From Streptomyces sp. NBC_00162 (lineage in GTDB: Bacteria > Actinomycetota > Actinomycetes > Streptomycetales > Streptomycetaceae): 64,000 nt of DNA. Location of the stretch: contig NZ_CP102509.1 of NCBI RefSeq assembly GCF_024611995.1, positions 1,240,001-1,304,000 of the forward strand, given 5' to 3'. Below the pieces are notes generated by a model. That model ran no database searches. It was not told the DNA's origin and saw nothing but the letters and a program-made list of their open reading frames with translations. Both the position numbers and the translations under genes were made by a program. Below are positions 41,521-47,534 of this stretch, one piece after another (position 1 is the first letter of the stretch; each line of letters starts with the position of its first letter).

Positions 41521-42051
41521 TCAGCGAACTGCGCCCATGGTGCGGGTGAACTCCTCCGGGTCGGCGTCGAAGCCCTGCAGGCGGGCGTCGAGGGACCAGG
41601 ATCCCGAGTCGTCCCGGGTGAACACCGCGACCGTGGCGGCAGTGGCGGACGGGATGGCGTCGAAGTCGCCCTGGGCGAGGTCGGTGTGCCCCTCGCGGAT
41701 CCGGACCCCCGTACCGGCGATGTCGGCAAAGGTCGCGCGCCGCCCACCGGTGTCCTGAATGAGCACCCCGACCACCACGCGGTGCAACTCCGATGCCATC
41801 CGGTCGAGTTCGAGGGTCATCACCTCGTCGAAGCCGAAGCCCTGGCCCGTGTGGCTGTCCCGGTTCAGGGTGATGGTGCCGTCCGGTGACCGGCTGCCGA
41901 AGTGGACCAGGTGGACGGGTACCCCGTGCAGGTCCGCGGCGCCGTACACCGCGGCCACGATGTCGAGGTCGTGCGCGGGCCGTTCGGCGGGACTGGGGTC
42001 CCACCGCAGCGCGACCTCGACCTTGGCCAGACCCTTGCGTACACCGGTCAC
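41521..42051 (-). CDS. TerD-family (tellurium-resistance-like) protein
   Basis: 176 aa. TerD-fold landmarks: KVEVALRWDPSPA, HDLDIVAAVYGA, HFGSRSPDGTITLNRDSHTG and the calcium-binding-like GFDEVMTLELDRM. TerD proteins bind calcium and act in stress or tellurite resistance; single copies are common in Streptomyces and some affect differentiation. GTG 42051 was chosen because VTGVRKGLAKVEV matches the family start and GGGGGAG lies upstream. Confidence 0.9.
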   Translation of the reverse strand: MTGVRKGLAKVEVALRWDPSPAERPAHDLDIVAAVYGAADLHGVPVHLVHFGSRSPDGTITLNRDSHTGQGFGFDEVMTLELDRMASELHRVVVGVLIQDTGGRRATFADIAGTGVRIREGHTDLAQGDFDAIPSATAATVAVFTRDDSGSWSLDARLQGFDADPEEFTRTMGAVR

Positions 42052-42147: not shown

Positions 42148-43326
42148 TCATGTGGCGAGGTCGACGCGTACGGTCTCCACCCAGGCCGGGGGCGCGGGCG
42201 GGTTCGCCCCGACCAGCGCGGCGATCAGCCGGCAGGACGGTGTCTCGTCCGGCCACGGCGTGTACCCGTCGGTCAGCACGACGACGACGTTCGGCCGGTC
42301 GGGCAGGGCCAGCGCGGCGCCGATGCCGACCCGCATGTCCGTGCCCCCGCCGCCCGCCAGGGTCACCTCGCCCGCGCTTCTCACCCGGGTCACGGCGTGT
42401 ACGTCGGCGTCGCAGGCCAGTACGGCGACCCGGTTGCCGCCGACCCCCACCTCCCGCAGGACGCCGGTGACTTCGGCCAGCGCGGCCGCGAGGTCGTCCG
42501 GGCCCATCGACCCCGAGGTGTCGATGACGATCGCCACCCGCGGCAGCGGCCTGCGCAGGCTGGGCAGCACCACCCGGCCGCCGAGCGCGGGAGTGCGGCG
42601 CGAGGGGCGGCGGTACGTGTAGTCCACCGCGCCGGCCGCCCAGGCGGCGGCCTCGCGGACCGCTCCGGACAGGGCGCGGCGCCAGTCGACGGTGGGCTCC
42701 AGCAGCTCCTGCGCCCACCGGGCCCAGCCCGCGGGGATGGTGCCCCGGGTGCGCTGCTGGGCCCGTACGGCCTGGGCGGTCTGCCGGCGCAGCGCCTCCG
42801 CCTCCACCGGGCCGACCCGGGCGGGGCCCCCGTCCTCGCCGAGCTCCCAGGGCATGGGGGTGCCGTGCGCGCCGGATCCGCAGTCGACCCCGTGGGGCGT
42901 GGGCGGGATCGCGGGCAGGTAGGCCTCGAACAGGCCGCCGGTGGCCAGGCCGAAGAGCCTGGGCTCCATCCGCCCCTCGGGCAGCGCCAGCCCGTCGGCG
43001 AGCAGGTCGTCGTTGATCTCGCAGTCCTGGGCGATGTTGACCCGGACCGGATCGCGCTGGTCGGCGGCGGGCAGGCGCTCGGCCCGGCCGTGGTGGTCGC
43101 GCAGCAGGTGCGCCACCTCGTGGATCCACACCCCGGCCAGCTCGACGACCGGGGTCGCCTCGACGAAGGCCGGCGAGACGTAGCAGCGCCAGTGCCGGTC
43201 GACGCCCATGGTGCGCACGCCGTCCGAGGGGACGACCGTGAGGGCGTACAGGGCGGAGGCGAGGTACGGGCGGGCTTCGGCGGCCTTGTAGCGGGCTGCC
43301 AGCAGCTTCGCGCGGTCCAGGCTCAC
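42148..43326 (-). CDS. VWA protein with zinc metallopeptidase-like domain (DUF2201 type)
   Basis: 392 aa. The N-terminal half has a zincin-like motif, His69-Glu-Val-Ala-His73 (VWIHEVAHLLRDH), as in putative metallopeptidase domains of the DUF2201 family. The C-terminal half is a VWA-like domain with a MIDAS motif DTSGSMG, GGGGTDM and LTDGYTPWPDE. The start is GTG 43326; it begins 13 bp after the stop of the MoxR gene. In this family the VWA subunit works with a MoxR ATPase in metal insertion, complex assembly or defence; which of these is true here is not known. Confidence 0.85.
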   Translation of the reverse strand: MSLDRAKLLAARYKAAEARPYLASALYALTVVPSDGVRTMGVDRHWRCYVSPAFVEATPVVELAGVWIHEVAHLLRDHHGRAERLPAADQRDPVRVNIAQDCEINDDLLADGLALPEGRMEPRLFGLATGGLFEAYLPAIPPTPHGVDCGSGAHGTPMPWELGEDGGPARVGPVEAEALRRQTAQAVRAQQRTRGTIPAGWARWAQELLEPTVDWRRALSGAVREAAAWAAGAVDYTYRRPSRRTPALGGRVVLPSLRRPLPRVAIVIDTSGSMGPDDLAAALAEVTGVLREVGVGGNRVAVLACDADVHAVTRVRSAGEVTLAGGGGTDMRVGIGAALALPDRPNVVVVLTDGYTPWPDETPSCRLIAALVGANPPAPPAWVETVRVDLAT

Positions 43327-43339
43327 GGCGGGGCCGGGC

Positions 43340-44536
43340 TCAGCCGCCGCCCGGCAGGGAGCCGGACAGCTGGAGCAGTTCCACGAAGGCGTCGATGCCG
43401 GCGGGCACGGGCCAGTCGAGGTCGCGCATCGCGGCGAGGTCGGCGGCGGCGCGGGCGGCCACGTCGGGCACGCCCGCGTCCACGGCCTTGGCCAGGACGG
43501 CCCAGCCCGCCTCCCAGCGGGGGCGGGTGAGCTCGCTCTGCACGGCCGCGACCACGGCGATGAGGAAGGCCAGCTGCCGGTCGCCGCGTTCGGGCAGGGC
43601 GAAGGCGTCCGGGTCGGCCAGCACCCGGTCCGGGTCGGGCAGGTCGAGGTGTTCGAGGTACGAGAGCAGTTCGATCCCGGCGGCTTCGCCCACGGCCCCG
43701 GTGAGCGCCATGGCCAGTGCCTCCCGGCCCGTCGAGGCCGCGTACCCCGTGGCCAGCAGCCGCAGGGCCATCTCCCAGGTGCGCGGGGAGGGCCAGCCGC
43801 GGCCCCGTGCGGCGGCCTCGGCCGGCATGTGGTGGACCAGGCCCGGCCGGGCGGTGAGGAAGCCGGAGACCGCGCCGCGGGCCCGGGCGACAGAGCCGGA
43901 GGCCTTGGCGGGATCGACGGCCGGGATCGCCACCTCGGGCCAGGTGCCGGCCATGCCACGGGCCACGGTGCGCGGGTTGTGCGTCCAGTCGAGGTGGACG
44001 AAGCGGTTGGCGAGCGGCGGGCTGAGGTGCCAGCCGTCGGCCGCGCTGGCGGGCGGATTGGCCGCGGCGACGATCCGTACCGCCGCCGGGAGTTCGTGGC
44101 TGCCGACCCGGCGTTCCAGGACCACGCGCAGCAGGGCCGCCTGCACGGCGGGCGGGGCGGAGGACAACTCGTCGAAGAACAGCAGCCCGTGGCCGGTCCG
44201 GGCGAGGCGCACCGCCCAGTCCGGCGGGGCCATCGGGACACCCGTGGTGGCGGGGTCCTCGCCGACGATGGGCAGCCCGGCGAAGTCGGAGGGCTCGTGG
44301 ACGCTGGCGATGACGGTCTCCAGCTCCACGCCGAGCGCGGTCGCGAGCTGCTGCATGCCGGCGGACTTGCCGATGCCCGGCTCACCCCACAGCAGGACGG
44401 GCTGATTGGCCGTCACGGCCAGGGCCAGTGCCTCGAGTTGGGGGTTGGTGGCGGGTTCGGTGCGGATGGCGCTCAGCCGGGCGCCCAGGGCGTCGGCGGC
44501 GGCCAGGGCCCGGGCGGGCTGCGGCTGGGCACTCAT
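43340..44536 (-). CDS. MoxR-type AAA+ ATPase
   Basis: 398 aa. Walker A GEPGIGKS (residues 51-58), Walker B GLLFFDELSSA, sensor-1 region VRIVAAANPPASAADG and an arginine-finger-like LANRFVHLDW. These are the MoxR-class blocks. It overlaps the ankyrin gene stop by 4 bases and is followed 13 bp later by the VWA gene, giving the classic MoxR-VWA pairing in which the ATPase remodels a target through the VWA partner. Confidence 0.9.
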   Translation of the reverse strand: MSAQPQPARALAAADALGARLSAIRTEPATNPQLEALALAVTANQPVLLWGEPGIGKSAGMQQLATALGVELETVIASVHEPSDFAGLPIVGEDPATTGVPMAPPDWAVRLARTGHGLLFFDELSSAPPAVQAALLRVVLERRVGSHELPAAVRIVAAANPPASAADGWHLSPPLANRFVHLDWTHNPRTVARGMAGTWPEVAIPAVDPAKASGSVARARGAVSGFLTARPGLVHHMPAEAAARGRGWPSPRTWEMALRLLATGYAASTGREALAMALTGAVGEAAGIELLSYLEHLDLPDPDRVLADPDAFALPERGDRQLAFLIAVVAAVQSELTRPRWEAGWAVLAKAVDAGVPDVAARAAADLAAMRDLDWPVPAGIDAFVELLQLSGSLPGGG

Positions 44537-46188
44537 GCGTCCTCGTCCTCTCCCTCGTCCATGTACTCGTCGAACCAGTCGGCGCCGATGCCGGGGAACT
44601 CCTCGTCGACCCGCTGCCGCAGGAAGGTGAGGTCCGTGCGCTTGTAGCGGCGGATCTCCTGGGACAGCGACAGCTCCATCTCGTCGACGACGTCGATCCG
44701 GGAGCCGGCCGCCAGCAGGGCCCTGACCAGATCCGCCGAACCGCCCCAGTGCACCGCGGAGTGCAGCGGGGTGCGCTCGTGCTTGTCCCGCGCCTCCAGG
44801 TCGAGTCCGGCCGCGAGCAGCCGGGGCAGCAGCACTTCGTGGTCGAGCAGGTGGAGTTCGTGCAGCAGTCCGCGTCCGCGGGCGTTCCGGATCCGGGGGT
44901 CCACGCCCGCGTCCAGCAGCGCCACGACCGCCGGGGTGTCCCCGTGCTGGACGCGCAGGAAGAGCTCCCGCTGCTGGGCCCGCAGGGCGCGCGGCAGCCG
45001 CCCCTCGCCCGTGGTCCAGGTCTGCTGCACGGCGAAGCACCCGGAGACCGCGCCGCCGAACGCCCGCATGGCGCGCTCCCGTTGCTGCTCCTCCGGGGTG
45101 TGCGGCACGTCGAGTACGCCGCCCCGCGAGCGGACCTCGTGCCACGCGCCGCGGCAGCGCACCCGTACGGGCTTCCCCGTGTCGGGGCCGGGCGGGCCGA
45201 CGGCCGGTCCGGCGTCGGGGAACAGTGCGGCGGCCACCAGCGGGTGCAGCTCGCGCGGGGTGATCCGGCCGGTCCGCACCAGTTCGAGGTCGGGGAGGCG
45301 TTTCCAGACGTACCTGGGCAGGTACGGGACGGTGAGCGCCTCCTCCGTCTCCATGAAGCGGGCCCGGAGCCGGTCGGGGCCGTCCGGCTCCAGCAGGAGG
45401 TGGGTGCGCCAGTCGGCCGCGATCCGGTACCGGTCCCCCGCGCCGGCCGCCGCGAGCCGCCCCACCTCCGGCACGAGCCGGGTGAGGTCGATCGGCATCC
45501 GCTCGAAGAGGGCCGTGGGGTCCACCGGACGCTGATAGGGCTGTGGGGTGGGCACGGTCAGGTCGCACTCGATGCCCGCGGCCTCGTACGCCGCGGCGAT
45601 GTCCCCCTGCGCGTGGAGCAGCGTGATCCGTTGGGCGCGGCCCTCCGGGTCGCCGAAGCGGGCGCCCAGCTCGGATGCGCGGCGGGCGTCCCAGAACGGC
45701 CGGACCACGGTCCAGTCCTCCGGGACGAAGCCGCGGCCCGTGTACCGGTTCCACTTCATCGGGACGACCGGCTCGCAGTGCAGGCGCAGGCGCTGCGCTC
45801 CCTCGGTCATGACGGGCGTGGTGAGCGACAGGGTCGGGCCGTCGGCGCCACCGTACGAGGCGAGCAGGATCCGCAGGTCGGTGTCGATGGTGGTGCGGCC
45901 GCCCAGGAGCCGGGGCAGGTGCCAGCGCAGCAGGTCCGGGGCGAGGTGGCGGAGGTCGTCCTCGACGGCCTCGGCGACGGAGGCGCCGTAGCGGGCCGCG
46001 ATCTCGGGCAGGTCGAAGCCGATGTCCACGCCGGCGCAGGCGCAGGCCGCCTGCCAGTCCCCGGCCAGGCGGTGCGCGGTGGCCTGTTCGATCATCCAGC
46101 CGGGTACGGCGTACCGGCGGATCCGCTGCCAGGTCGGGACGTCCTCGGGCCGGAGGCCGCCGGGCAGTTCGGCGTGCTCCGGGCTCAC
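44533..46188 (-). CDS. Ankyrin-repeat protein of a MoxR-VWA operon
   Basis: 551 aa. The first 400 residues show no domain I can name: they begin GLRPEDVPTWQRIRRYAVPG and are rich in Arg, Trp and Leu. The C-terminal part (about 430-530) has three ankyrin-like repeats, e.g. FLRVQHGDTPAVVALLDAGVD, HEVLLPRLLAAGLDLEARDK, RTPLHSAVHWGGSADLVRAL. The last residues are acidic (DEYMDEGEDEDA). GTG 46188 overlaps the stop of the upstream leucine-rich-repeat gene, and its stop overlaps the MoxR start. It probably recognises a protein target. Confidence 0.8.
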   Translation of the reverse strand: MSPEHAELPGGLRPEDVPTWQRIRRYAVPGWMIEQATAHRLAGDWQAACACAGVDIGFDLPEIAARYGASVAEAVEDDLRHLAPDLLRWHLPRLLGGRTTIDTDLRILLASYGGADGPTLSLTTPVMTEGAQRLRLHCEPVVPMKWNRYTGRGFVPEDWTVVRPFWDARRASELGARFGDPEGRAQRITLLHAQGDIAAAYEAAGIECDLTVPTPQPYQRPVDPTALFERMPIDLTRLVPEVGRLAAAGAGDRYRIAADWRTHLLLEPDGPDRLRARFMETEEALTVPYLPRYVWKRLPDLELVRTGRITPRELHPLVAAALFPDAGPAVGPPGPDTGKPVRVRCRGAWHEVRSRGGVLDVPHTPEEQQRERAMRAFGGAVSGCFAVQQTWTTGEGRLPRALRAQQRELFLRVQHGDTPAVVALLDAGVDPRIRNARGRGLLHELHLLDHEVLLPRLLAAGLDLEARDKHERTPLHSAVHWGGSADLVRALLAAGSRIDVVDEMELSLSQEIRRYKRTDLTFLRQRVDEEFPGIGADWFDEYMDEGEDEDA

Positions 46189-47321
46189 CGGTACACGCTG
46201 CCGATGGCGCGCAGGTCCGGGTGGGCGGCCCGGGCGGGGCGGAGCCGTTCGGTGAAGGAGCGCTTCACGCGGCGGGGCAGGCCGGGGCCCAGGCCGACGT
46301 ATTCCAGGGGGCTGTCGGCGGGCACCGCGGCGAGCAGGCTCTTCGCGCCGCGGCCGGTGAGGCCGGTGTGGCGCAGCTCCAGCCGGCGCAGGGGGCTGCC
46401 GGAGAGGGCGGCGGCCAGGGCGTACGCCCCTTCGTCGCCGGGGTCGTTGCCGGTGGCTCCGAGGCTCCGCTCGGACATGGTCCGTCCGAGGTCCAGGGCT
46501 TCGATGCGGCCGAGGGCGCCGGCCAGGGAGCGTGCTCCGGCGGCGCCGATGCCGTTGCCGCCGAGCCCGAGGCGGACCGGGCGCGGGGAGTCCGCCGCGG
46601 CGGTGGCGAGGGTCGCGGCGCCCTCGTCGCCGAGGTGGTTGGCCGGGACGTACAGCTCCCGCACCCCGGCCTCCCGGATCAGGGCGGCGAGCAGCGGGGC
46701 GGTGTCGGGGCCGAGGCCGTTGCCGCCGAGGAAGAGCCGCTCCAGGGGCTGCTCGCGTTCCAGCAGGGCATCGAGCAGGAGACGTACGCCGTCGGCGCCG
46801 ATCCCGGTGTTGACCACGTCGAGGGTGCGCAGGGCGGTGTTGCGGCGCAGCAGCGCGGCCAGGGTGCGGGCGCCGTCCTCGAGGAGCGGGTTGCGCTTGA
46901 GCCAGAGGGCCCGGACGGTGCTGTCCTCGGCGAGGGCGCCGGCCAGGGCGCGCACCCCGTCGGGGCCGATCCGGTTGCAGCCGAGGTAGAGGGTGTGCAG
47001 GCCGTGGCCGCCGGTGAGGGTCCCTGCCAGGGTGCGGGCGCCCTCGTCGCCGATGGCGTTGGTGCCGAGCAGCAGGTGGGTGGCGTGCGCGGAGGCGGCC
47101 GCGGCCGGCAGCAGCCGGGCCGCGCCGCCCGGGCCGAGTCCCTGCTTGCAGAGGTCGACGCGGCCGTCCGTGCGCAGGGTGCCGAGCGGAAAGGCCTCGT
47201 CGGTCTCGACCGGCCGGTCCGCCGCGAGCCGGGCGAGCAGCGGGTCGAGTCCGGCCGGGTCGGCCGCGGGCACGTCCGGGTGCTCGATCGCGGGGCACCG
47301 TACGGGTGTCGGCTGTGTCAT
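46185..47321 (-). CDS. Leucine-rich-repeat protein (ribonuclease-inhibitor type)
   Basis: 378 aa, almost entirely repeats of the ribonuclease-inhibitor class, about nine, of the form L-x-L-x-x-N-x-I-G-x-x-G-A-x-x-L-A: for example LHTLYLGCNRIGPDGVRALA and VRLGLGGNGIGAAGARSLAG. A 60-residue N-terminal region precedes them. No signal or membrane segment, so it is cytoplasmic. ATG 47321 has GGAG five bases upstream. It is the first gene of the LRR-ankyrin-MoxR-VWA operon. A tRNA-like gene lies 60 bp upstream on the same strand. Confidence 0.85.
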   Translation of the reverse strand: MTQPTPVRCPAIEHPDVPAADPAGLDPLLARLAADRPVETDEAFPLGTLRTDGRVDLCKQGLGPGGAARLLPAAAASAHATHLLLGTNAIGDEGARTLAGTLTGGHGLHTLYLGCNRIGPDGVRALAGALAEDSTVRALWLKRNPLLEDGARTLAALLRRNTALRTLDVVNTGIGADGVRLLLDALLEREQPLERLFLGGNGLGPDTAPLLAALIREAGVRELYVPANHLGDEGAATLATAAADSPRPVRLGLGGNGIGAAGARSLAGALGRIEALDLGRTMSERSLGATGNDPGDEGAYALAAALSGSPLRRLELRHTGLTGRGAKSLLAAVPADSPLEYVGLGPGLPRRVKRSFTERLRPARAAHPDLRAIGSVYR

Positions 47322-47381
47322 CACCACTCCACCGGTTCCTTCGCCGGTGCCCGGCGTCCATCACGACTTGAGACGAAGACG

Positions 47382-47454
47382 CAAGACCGGTCGGATTCGA
47401 ACCGACGTCCTCCAGCTTGATGCGTGGGCGCGACGACCTCTGCGCTACGGCCTT
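47382..47454 (-). tRNA. tRNA-like gene with an irregular anticodon arm
   Basis: 73 nt. Acceptor stem AAGGCCG/CGGTCTT (one G-U pair), positions 8-9 TA, D stem GCGC/GCGC with a 10-nt loop, T arm GTCGG-TTCGAAT-CCGAC and discriminator G73 are all in place. The anticodon arm does not form a normal 5-bp stem with a 7-nt loop: the best pairing is CCA(C)GC/GCTGG with a bulged C and a 5-nt ATCAA loop. By position the anticodon would be CAA, but the variable loop is too short for tRNA-Leu. No CCA is encoded. It may be a pseudo-tRNA or hold a sequencing error. Confidence 0.5.
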
Positions 47455-47534
47455 GCTGCGGACGATCATACCGACCCAGCGGCCGGAAATCGATCACCAG
47501 TTTGAGGCATCGATTCCCGACTGCCCTGATAGGT

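Follow-up and report, generated by a model that had tools for sequence, protein, structure and literature searches.

A group of four leftwards-transcribed genes lies in a 64,000-nucleotide stretch of the Streptomyces sp. NBC_00162 genome (hereafter the window; contig NZ_CP102509.1, positions 1,240,001 to 1,304,000). They code for a ribonuclease-inhibitor-type (RI-type) leucine-rich-repeat (LRR) protein, an ankyrin-repeat protein that we call X, a MoxR-type AAA+ ATPase, and a protein with DUF2201 and VWA-like domains, and a tRNA-like RNA gene stands upstream of them. The LRR, X, MoxR and DUF2201-VWA genes form one minus-strand operon, conserved among soil bacteria, and the arrangement is more than chance because the same order is found again across many genomes and genera.

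Operon layout and predicted proteins

The coordinates (Table 1) agree with a preliminary description of this DNA as to the four genes, their strand and their joins: the LRR and X genes overlap by 4 bases, as do the X and MoxR genes, and a gap of 13 bases separates the MoxR and VWA genes. The interval given there had the genes right but, ending at 47321, was too short, as the tRNA-like gene and a -10-like box lie upstream of it. The tRNA-like RNA itself, mentioned there only in passing, is recognized by both ARAGORN and Rfam, ends 52–53 nt before the LRR start, and is a conserved component of the operon form described below as form A.

Table 1. Features of the LRR-X-MoxR-VWA operon and its upstream RNA gene (window coordinates)
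Feature	Position	Strand	Remarks
LRR protein gene, 380 aa	46185-47327	-	LRR_6; ribonuclease-inhibitor-type repeats
X gene, 551 aa	44533-46188	-	N-terminal domain (residues ~1-400) of no known family, C-terminal ankyrin repeats
Ankyrin repeats of X, residues 410-505	44674-44961	-	Ank_2 and Ank_5 above cut-off
MoxR-type AAA+ ATPase gene, 398 aa	43340-44536	-	AAA_5 above cut-off
Gene for a 392-aa protein with a DUF2201 putative metallopeptidase domain and, after it, a VWA-like domain	42148-43326	-	DUF2201_N 105.7 bits, DUF2201 66.6 bits
HEVAH zincin-like motif, residues 69-73 of the VWA protein	43108-43122	-	HExxH
tRNA-like RNA gene	47380-47457	-	ARAGORN; Rfam tRNA 38.5 bits (cut-off 29)
-10-like box TATGAT, 7 nt upstream of the tRNA-like RNA	47465-47470	-	Putative promoter element

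Pfam matches, each above the curated cut-off of its family, are LRR_6 in the LRR protein, Ank_2 and Ank_5 in X, AAA_5 in MoxR, and DUF2201_N plus DUF2201 in the VWA protein, bearing out the DUF2201 and MoxR assignments made earlier. The other earlier assignments also stand. The best solved relative of the LRR protein is ribonuclease inhibitor (E 3.4e-28); Pfam gives nothing at E ≤ 1 for the N-terminal ~400 residues of X, whose ankyrin repeats are its only Pfam match and which lacks a solved relative at E ≤ 0.1; and the glutamate of the HEVAH motif is indeed Glu70. The best solved relatives of MoxR are midasin and PspF, the VWA protein has a single weak solved-structure match (a designed protein, E 0.0017), and NCBIfam and PADLOC scans of the operon proteins gave nothing specific.

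The catalytic motifs are well kept in homologues. HExxH, on whose conservation the idea of a single machine had been made to depend, is present in 95 of 97 VWA proteins, the two misses being short gene models. The metal-site motif DTSxS is found in 91 of the 97, GGGTD/N in 95, and N[IV]AxDxEIN, a candidate third metal ligand, downstream of HExxH in 85. MoxR homologues retain Walker A (98/100) and the Walker B DE pair (99/100). The motifs make a working ATPase and peptidase likely.

Two operon forms and the linkage of the tRNA-like RNA

X was sought in 61 genomes of the genus Streptomyces, 56 of which have some match, many to the ankyrin part only, and 38 neighbourhoods with matches to the N-terminal domain were compared with the window (the genus set). 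A second set of 78 loci was kept from at least 388 X relatives in named genomes (the named set). Counts throughout are of loci, not of independent events; L026 and L087 come from one and the same contig, and other near-duplicates may be among them. Gene models come from a simple coding-statistics caller, which finds no X in L123 and L132 of the named set, and some form-B loci are cut by contig ends.

Two forms are found. Form A, to which the window and L025–L030 of the genus set belong, is LRR-X-MoxR-VWA; form B (31 genus-set and 4 named-set loci, 35 in all) has X, mostly with MoxR and VWA, and no LRR; L055 of the genus set is a lone X. Among the 115 X clusters of both sets MoxR is present in 98, VWA in 95, LRR in 59 and a short-chain dehydrogenase (SDR) in 21. 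The recurrent core is X-MoxR-VWA, in that order in most loci read. To this, form A adds the RI-type LRR, usually ankyrin repeats on X, one to four tandem X genes, and an SDR in 20 loci. The four genes do occur together elsewhere, as a single machine would presuppose: the genus set, counting the window's, has all four in each of its seven LRR-bearing form-A clusters, and the named set in 51 of 52 such clusters, the exception (L099) being LRR-X only. The two repeat proteins do not make a fixed pair, as the LRR is missing from the 35 form-B loci and X is present in one to four copies.

Form-A loci of the named set often have two to four X genes in a row, mostly 35–63% identical and in one locus 81–86%. 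Pfam finds ankyrin in 7 of the 36 X proteins of alignment A1, a number equal to that of the form-A operon X proteins there (the members were not listed singly), and Ank_2 matches 43 of 51 form-A X proteins chosen across genera. In 20 named-set loci the gene before the LRR overlaps it by 4 or 7 bases, and all 20 genes belong to one family; the five members scanned are SDRs with a Cys-rich N-terminal motif (DZR_2 match below cut-off). The window's operon has no SDR gene.

X is rare across the phylum, with matches in 13 of 396 genomes, two of them only short and weak. Among the matches listed, the named-set genera are Streptomyces, Kitasatospora, Nonomuraea, Actinomadura, Planotetraspora, Actinoallomurus, Kibdelosporangium, Catellatospora, Micromonospora, Actinoplanes, Dactylosporangium, Fodinicola, Herbidospora, Nocardiopsis, Catenuloplanes, Virgisporangium, Rhodococcus and Thermomonospora, and the closest named relatives are from Streptomyces. 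Plasmid-borne X was considered and set aside: nine plasmid records hold X relatives, all below 60% identity and none covering 80% of the query. Genes flanking the operon are mostly not shared between genus-set loci. The leftwards gene directly downstream of the VWA gene (41521–42051), which we take to resemble a TerD-type stress protein, was rejected as part of the operon, a gene of similar size being found there in few close relatives only (L028, L082–L085).

The 9.0 Mb genome of the window's strain also carries a second X-MoxR-VWA set and a lone form-A X (L023:7857-9467, +) with its own tRNA-like 47 nt upstream. Its third DUF2201-MoxR pair (L248:6554-9426, -) is of a more distant type, with a VWA protein of 604 aa and no tRNA-like in the stretch read.

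The tRNA-like RNA accompanies the LRR-bearing operons closely. ARAGORN places one directly before the first recognized operon gene in all 20 form-A loci tested, with differing anticodons, and a sequence-pattern search over the window and 116 loci gave 84 copies. In the named set, a tRNA-like accompanies every one of the 50 LRR-bearing form-A clusters whose upstream DNA is readable, 48 times at most 616 nt upstream and twice (L140 and L155) inside the cluster; L119 and L130, also LRR-bearing, are cut by contig ends and fall outside the 50. The same is true of all seven LRR-bearing form-A clusters of the genus set, of the one X-plus-SDR cluster, and of some orphan X loci (5/12 named, 1/1 genus set). 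Copy numbers of tRNA-like and X are 3:3 in L106, 3:4 in L131, 4:3 in L143 and 2:4 in L127, and in the first three of these loci the extra tRNA-likes precede extra X genes. By the counts for each cluster type, including those for clusters without it that are weighed below, the tRNA-like goes with the LRR and some X genes and not with the core ATPase-peptidase pair.

Structure and relatives of the tRNA-like RNA

Alignment A2 holds 59 of the 84 copies, duplicates and near-duplicates being mostly left out, and folds as a cloverleaf with a 10-bp acceptor, a 3-bp D stem, a 5-bp anticodon stem and a 5-bp T stem. This cloverleaf pairs 92.0% of cells, against 85.3% in shuffles, and 13 pairs change on both sides, against 8.4 in shuffles. 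The acceptor helix is 97.8% paired, with double (compensatory) changes at 6 of its 10 pairs. It is 9 bp long in the window copy and 10 bp in most relatives, a departure from the canonical 7-bp acceptor, and the variable loop is 5 nt. An anticodon stem with two unpaired bases fits better (helix 77.8% paired, against 66.2%) and comes close to what the window copy adopts in its minimum-energy fold (z -2.1; 4 of 200 shuffles reach this stability). The window copy's own anticodon arm has three of five pairs and no T33; some relatives do have a 5-bp stem with U33.

Pairwise differences amount to 57% in the inner anticodon arm, 26% in the acceptor, 9.5% in the T arm and 4% each in the D arm and variable loop, the constancy of the D and T arms being inflated because ARAGORN and the pattern both demand features of these arms. 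Between copies of the same locus the figures are 56% for anticodon-arm positions and 10.5% for all others.

In 79 of 84 copies a TANNNT box precedes the tRNA-like, with its end 6 or 7 nt from the first acceptor base; of the 62 placed host tRNAs, 2 have such a box in the corresponding position. The fixed spacing of this -10-like box makes the first base of the tRNA-like the probable start of transcription. In 20 of 63 measured clusters no more than ~34 nt separate the tRNA-like from the first gene, and there the two are so close that they are probably co-transcribed. A TGTCGG motif, which may be a site for a regulator or sigma factor, lies ~10–13 nt upstream of the -10-like box in several non-Streptomyces loci (L101, L103, L127, L129, L131).

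The RNA family extends beyond these operons. Model R1 finds further high-scoring copies in the genus, and of the 20 neighbourhoods read some precede SDR or SDR-LRR genes and many are solitary, often with a tRNA-Trp loop. The solitary long-acceptor tRNA-likes with a tRNA-Trp-like anticodon loop (L194–L196, L198–L202, L205, L206, L213) have no X, LRR or SDR gene near them in the stretches read. Seventeen SDR loci were fetched, not at random, as copies at L249, L260, L264 and L265 were known beforehand: all six with an LRR have a tRNA-like, and of the 11 without, two have one (L258, L264), seven have none, and L255 and L256 have degenerate matches (31.6 and 25.6 bits). Where tRNA-likes head these Streptomyces SDR and SDR-LRR loci (L249–L265), two to four stand in tandem in places. 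The SDR is not specific to the system, because 104 of 121 genus genomes have relatives; that of the window's genome (L214:6099-7483, -) is split over two reading frames.

L252, L253 and L254 each have, next to the SDR-LRR locus, a further tRNA-like that is divergent from an adjoining gene pair. The only pair scanned (L254:6732-9941, -) codes for a DUF2201_N protein and an AAA protein, and the pairs in L252 and L253 are similar. Because a divergent tRNA-like adjoins such pairs in these three loci, tRNA-likes and DUF2201_N-AAA pairs may have met more than once, possibly giving a second RNA-linked lineage.

Interpretation and comparison with known systems

MoxR rings remodel clients together with VWA partners. 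We favour, tentatively and with somewhat less than even confidence, the reading that the operon encodes an actinobacterial MoxR-VWA ternary system (X, MoxR and DUF2201-VWA) to which form A adds a dedicated tRNA-mimic RNA at the start of a bait or sensor chain. The tRNA-like would head the operon RNA, to be either released or retained as a leader. It keeps the tRNA elbow and is presumably no substrate for translation, because its acceptor is over-long and its anticodon arm variable; since in tRNASec an acceptor of 8 bp lowers the affinity for EF-Tu about 100-fold (PMC7609411), an acceptor of 9–10 bp should not, by analogy, be fit for elongation. It would instead be a bait or sensor of tRNA-directed events (cleavage, binding, modification), with the RI-type LRR and X holding or watching it or its attackers. 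A change would then set the MoxR ring to work on X and the VWA protein, remodelling both and freeing the HExxH peptidase in what may be a stress or conflict response. Broken tRNAs that switch on an RNA repair operon offer a precedent (PMC7790460). The recognition-plus-processing machine suggested in the preliminary description is plausible as a hypothesis.

A more specific version is considerably more doubtful. Here the system would be a new class of RNA-guarded proteolytic machine. Its tRNA mimics, with variable anticodon arms and each with a promoter of its own that starts transcription at the RNA, would lure anticodon nucleases or other invaders that target tRNA; the RI-type LRR and X-ankyrin proteins would register damage to this bait and unleash an ATP-driven metallopeptidase, and duplicated tRNA-like and X units would form a recognition repertoire.

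Several observations weigh against a dedicated RNA component. Form-B operons have no tRNA-like by ARAGORN, pattern or model (0/31 genus set, 0/4 named set), form-A X-MoxR-VWA clusters without an LRR have one in only one of seven cases (L084), and 7 of 12 orphan X loci in the named set go without (L148 has a weak 35-bit model match). X has also multiplied without the RNA, L121 and L122 having one tRNA-like for three X genes and L126 none for three. As noted, the constancy of the elbow arms is in part a product of the search tools. Nor does plain anticodon mimicry explain the operon set, because host anticodon loops (40 distinct, from the window's genome only) equal its loops in only 1 of 48 arms. 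Such mimicry was therefore rejected as a general rule for the operon group and kept for the sister groups, where 4 of 13 SDR-LRR arms and 6 of 10 solitary arms carry a loop identical to a host loop.

The long acceptor also calls for caution. CC is read at positions 74–75 in 68 of the 84 copies and CCA in 18, as at a normal tRNA end, so what looks like the outer part of the stem might come from a 3-nt leader that pairs with the tRNA end. Certain ordinary-looking tRNAs of other families, picked out by the model, pair over 9–10 bp as well: of 29 loci examined in other actinobacterial families 13 could be placed, several of which pair 9–10 bp, tRNA end with leader, and most of the 13 are judged to be ordinary tRNAs. 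The long stem was therefore compared with the host's own tRNAs (67 found, 62 placed), the outer three acceptor pairs using the normal positions 73–75. Three extra pairs are formed by none of the 62, two by 10, one by 25 and none by 27, and among the 84 tRNA-likes three are formed by 68, two by 15 (the window copy included) and one by a single copy. All 16 copies without CC still keep two or three outer pairs.

On balance unlikely, though a serious contender, is that the tRNA-like is only a cis-acting 5' untranslated region controlling translation or stability, with no separate RNA, and acting for example through X, the LRR, a synthetase or tRNA-processing nucleases. The probable start at its first base agrees with this, as does the close spacing of the first gene in those 20 clusters, which leaves little room for a terminator; the yjdF riboswitch, moreover, regulates translation via a tRNA-like fold (PMC9142559). 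A leader is harder to reconcile with extra copies in tandem, each behind a -10-like box of its own and with differing anticodon arms (L107, L108, L124, L150), with the copies away from such operons in the genus, and with a near-invariant tRNA elbow.

We give little credence to an ordinary MoxR-VWA chaperone for the assembly or metallation of a partner complex, beside which the tRNA-like would be an incidental neighbour. NorQ-NorD and RavA-ViaA are MoxR-VWA pairs that act in this way, and form B does without the tRNA-like, but there is no linked enzyme client and the tRNA-like is found at every readable LRR-bearing form-A cluster. Equally improbable is a tRNA-like that is charged and used outside translation as an amino-acid donor, for a modification involving the linked dehydrogenase. 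The SDR gene that many non-Streptomyces loci have between tRNA-like and LRR and the weak EF-Tu binding of tRNASec would suit such a donor; against it are the window's operon without an SDR, the wide occurrence of SDR relatives in the genus, the varying anticodons and the scarcity of CCA. A decaying tRNA pseudogene or integration site might be suspected from the window copy's score, the lowest among 73 tRNA matches in its genome (38.5 bits), but this is already contradicted by the compensatory changes, the core conserved across genera and the fixed -10-like box, and can be practically dismissed.

Among described systems the nearest are the MoxR-vWA ternary conflict systems, whose third components include VMAP, iSTAND, FtsH and beta-propeller proteins (Kaur 2020, PMC7159879), with later versions including TERNS3 (PMC8195603). 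As in these, MoxR and VWA genes are accompanied by a conserved third component, in actinomycetes, and both the VWA metal site (DxSxS) and the adjoining MoxR gene that mark such systems are found. Unlike them, the operon has an X of no Pfam family, an N-terminal DUF2201_N peptidase, an RI-type LRR and a tRNA-like. Peptidase domains fused to the vWA protein do occur, a metallopeptidase rarely (PMC7159879); in the searched text of that paper 'ankyrin' and 'DUF2201' are absent and 'tRNA' occurs only in a reference.

The lengthened acceptor domain is shared with tRNASec (acceptor/T stems of 8/5 or 9/4) and allo-tRNA (8/4 or 9/3; PMC7609411), unlike which the RNA described here is 10/5 (9/5 in the window), has a short 5-nt variable loop and is linked to a protein operon. 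The Bacillus cereus pseudo-tRNA tRNAOther is likewise a tRNA-like with a role outside translation, and its Trp anticodon is shared with the solitary Streptomyces copies, but it is transcribed inside a longer RNA and the text searched mentions no MoxR or VWA link (PMC3399842).

RtcA/B, RtcR and Ro (TROVE) were not found by Pfam among the four operon proteins. Y RNAs carry tRNA-like parts. The RtcR-regulated RNA repair operon with a Ro protein and Y RNA is similarly tied to tRNA damage (PMC7790460), and differs in that here the RNA heads the operon.

DUF2201 is named in at least one open-licence PMC paper. Among the papers listed from that literature, as searched by title, abstract start or passages, no description of this gene set, of the tRNA-like or of an RNA partner of MoxR-VWA machines was found. 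We place the protein set with the MoxR-VWA systems, and the tRNA-like RNA, if functional, would be new in kind and add a structured RNA to these machines. The copies define a conserved family of tRNA mimics whose members current tools file as ordinary or undetermined tRNAs, and, if the bait reading is true, the operon would serve bacteria as a stress or immune device, keeping watch over a decoy in order to sense damage to tRNA.

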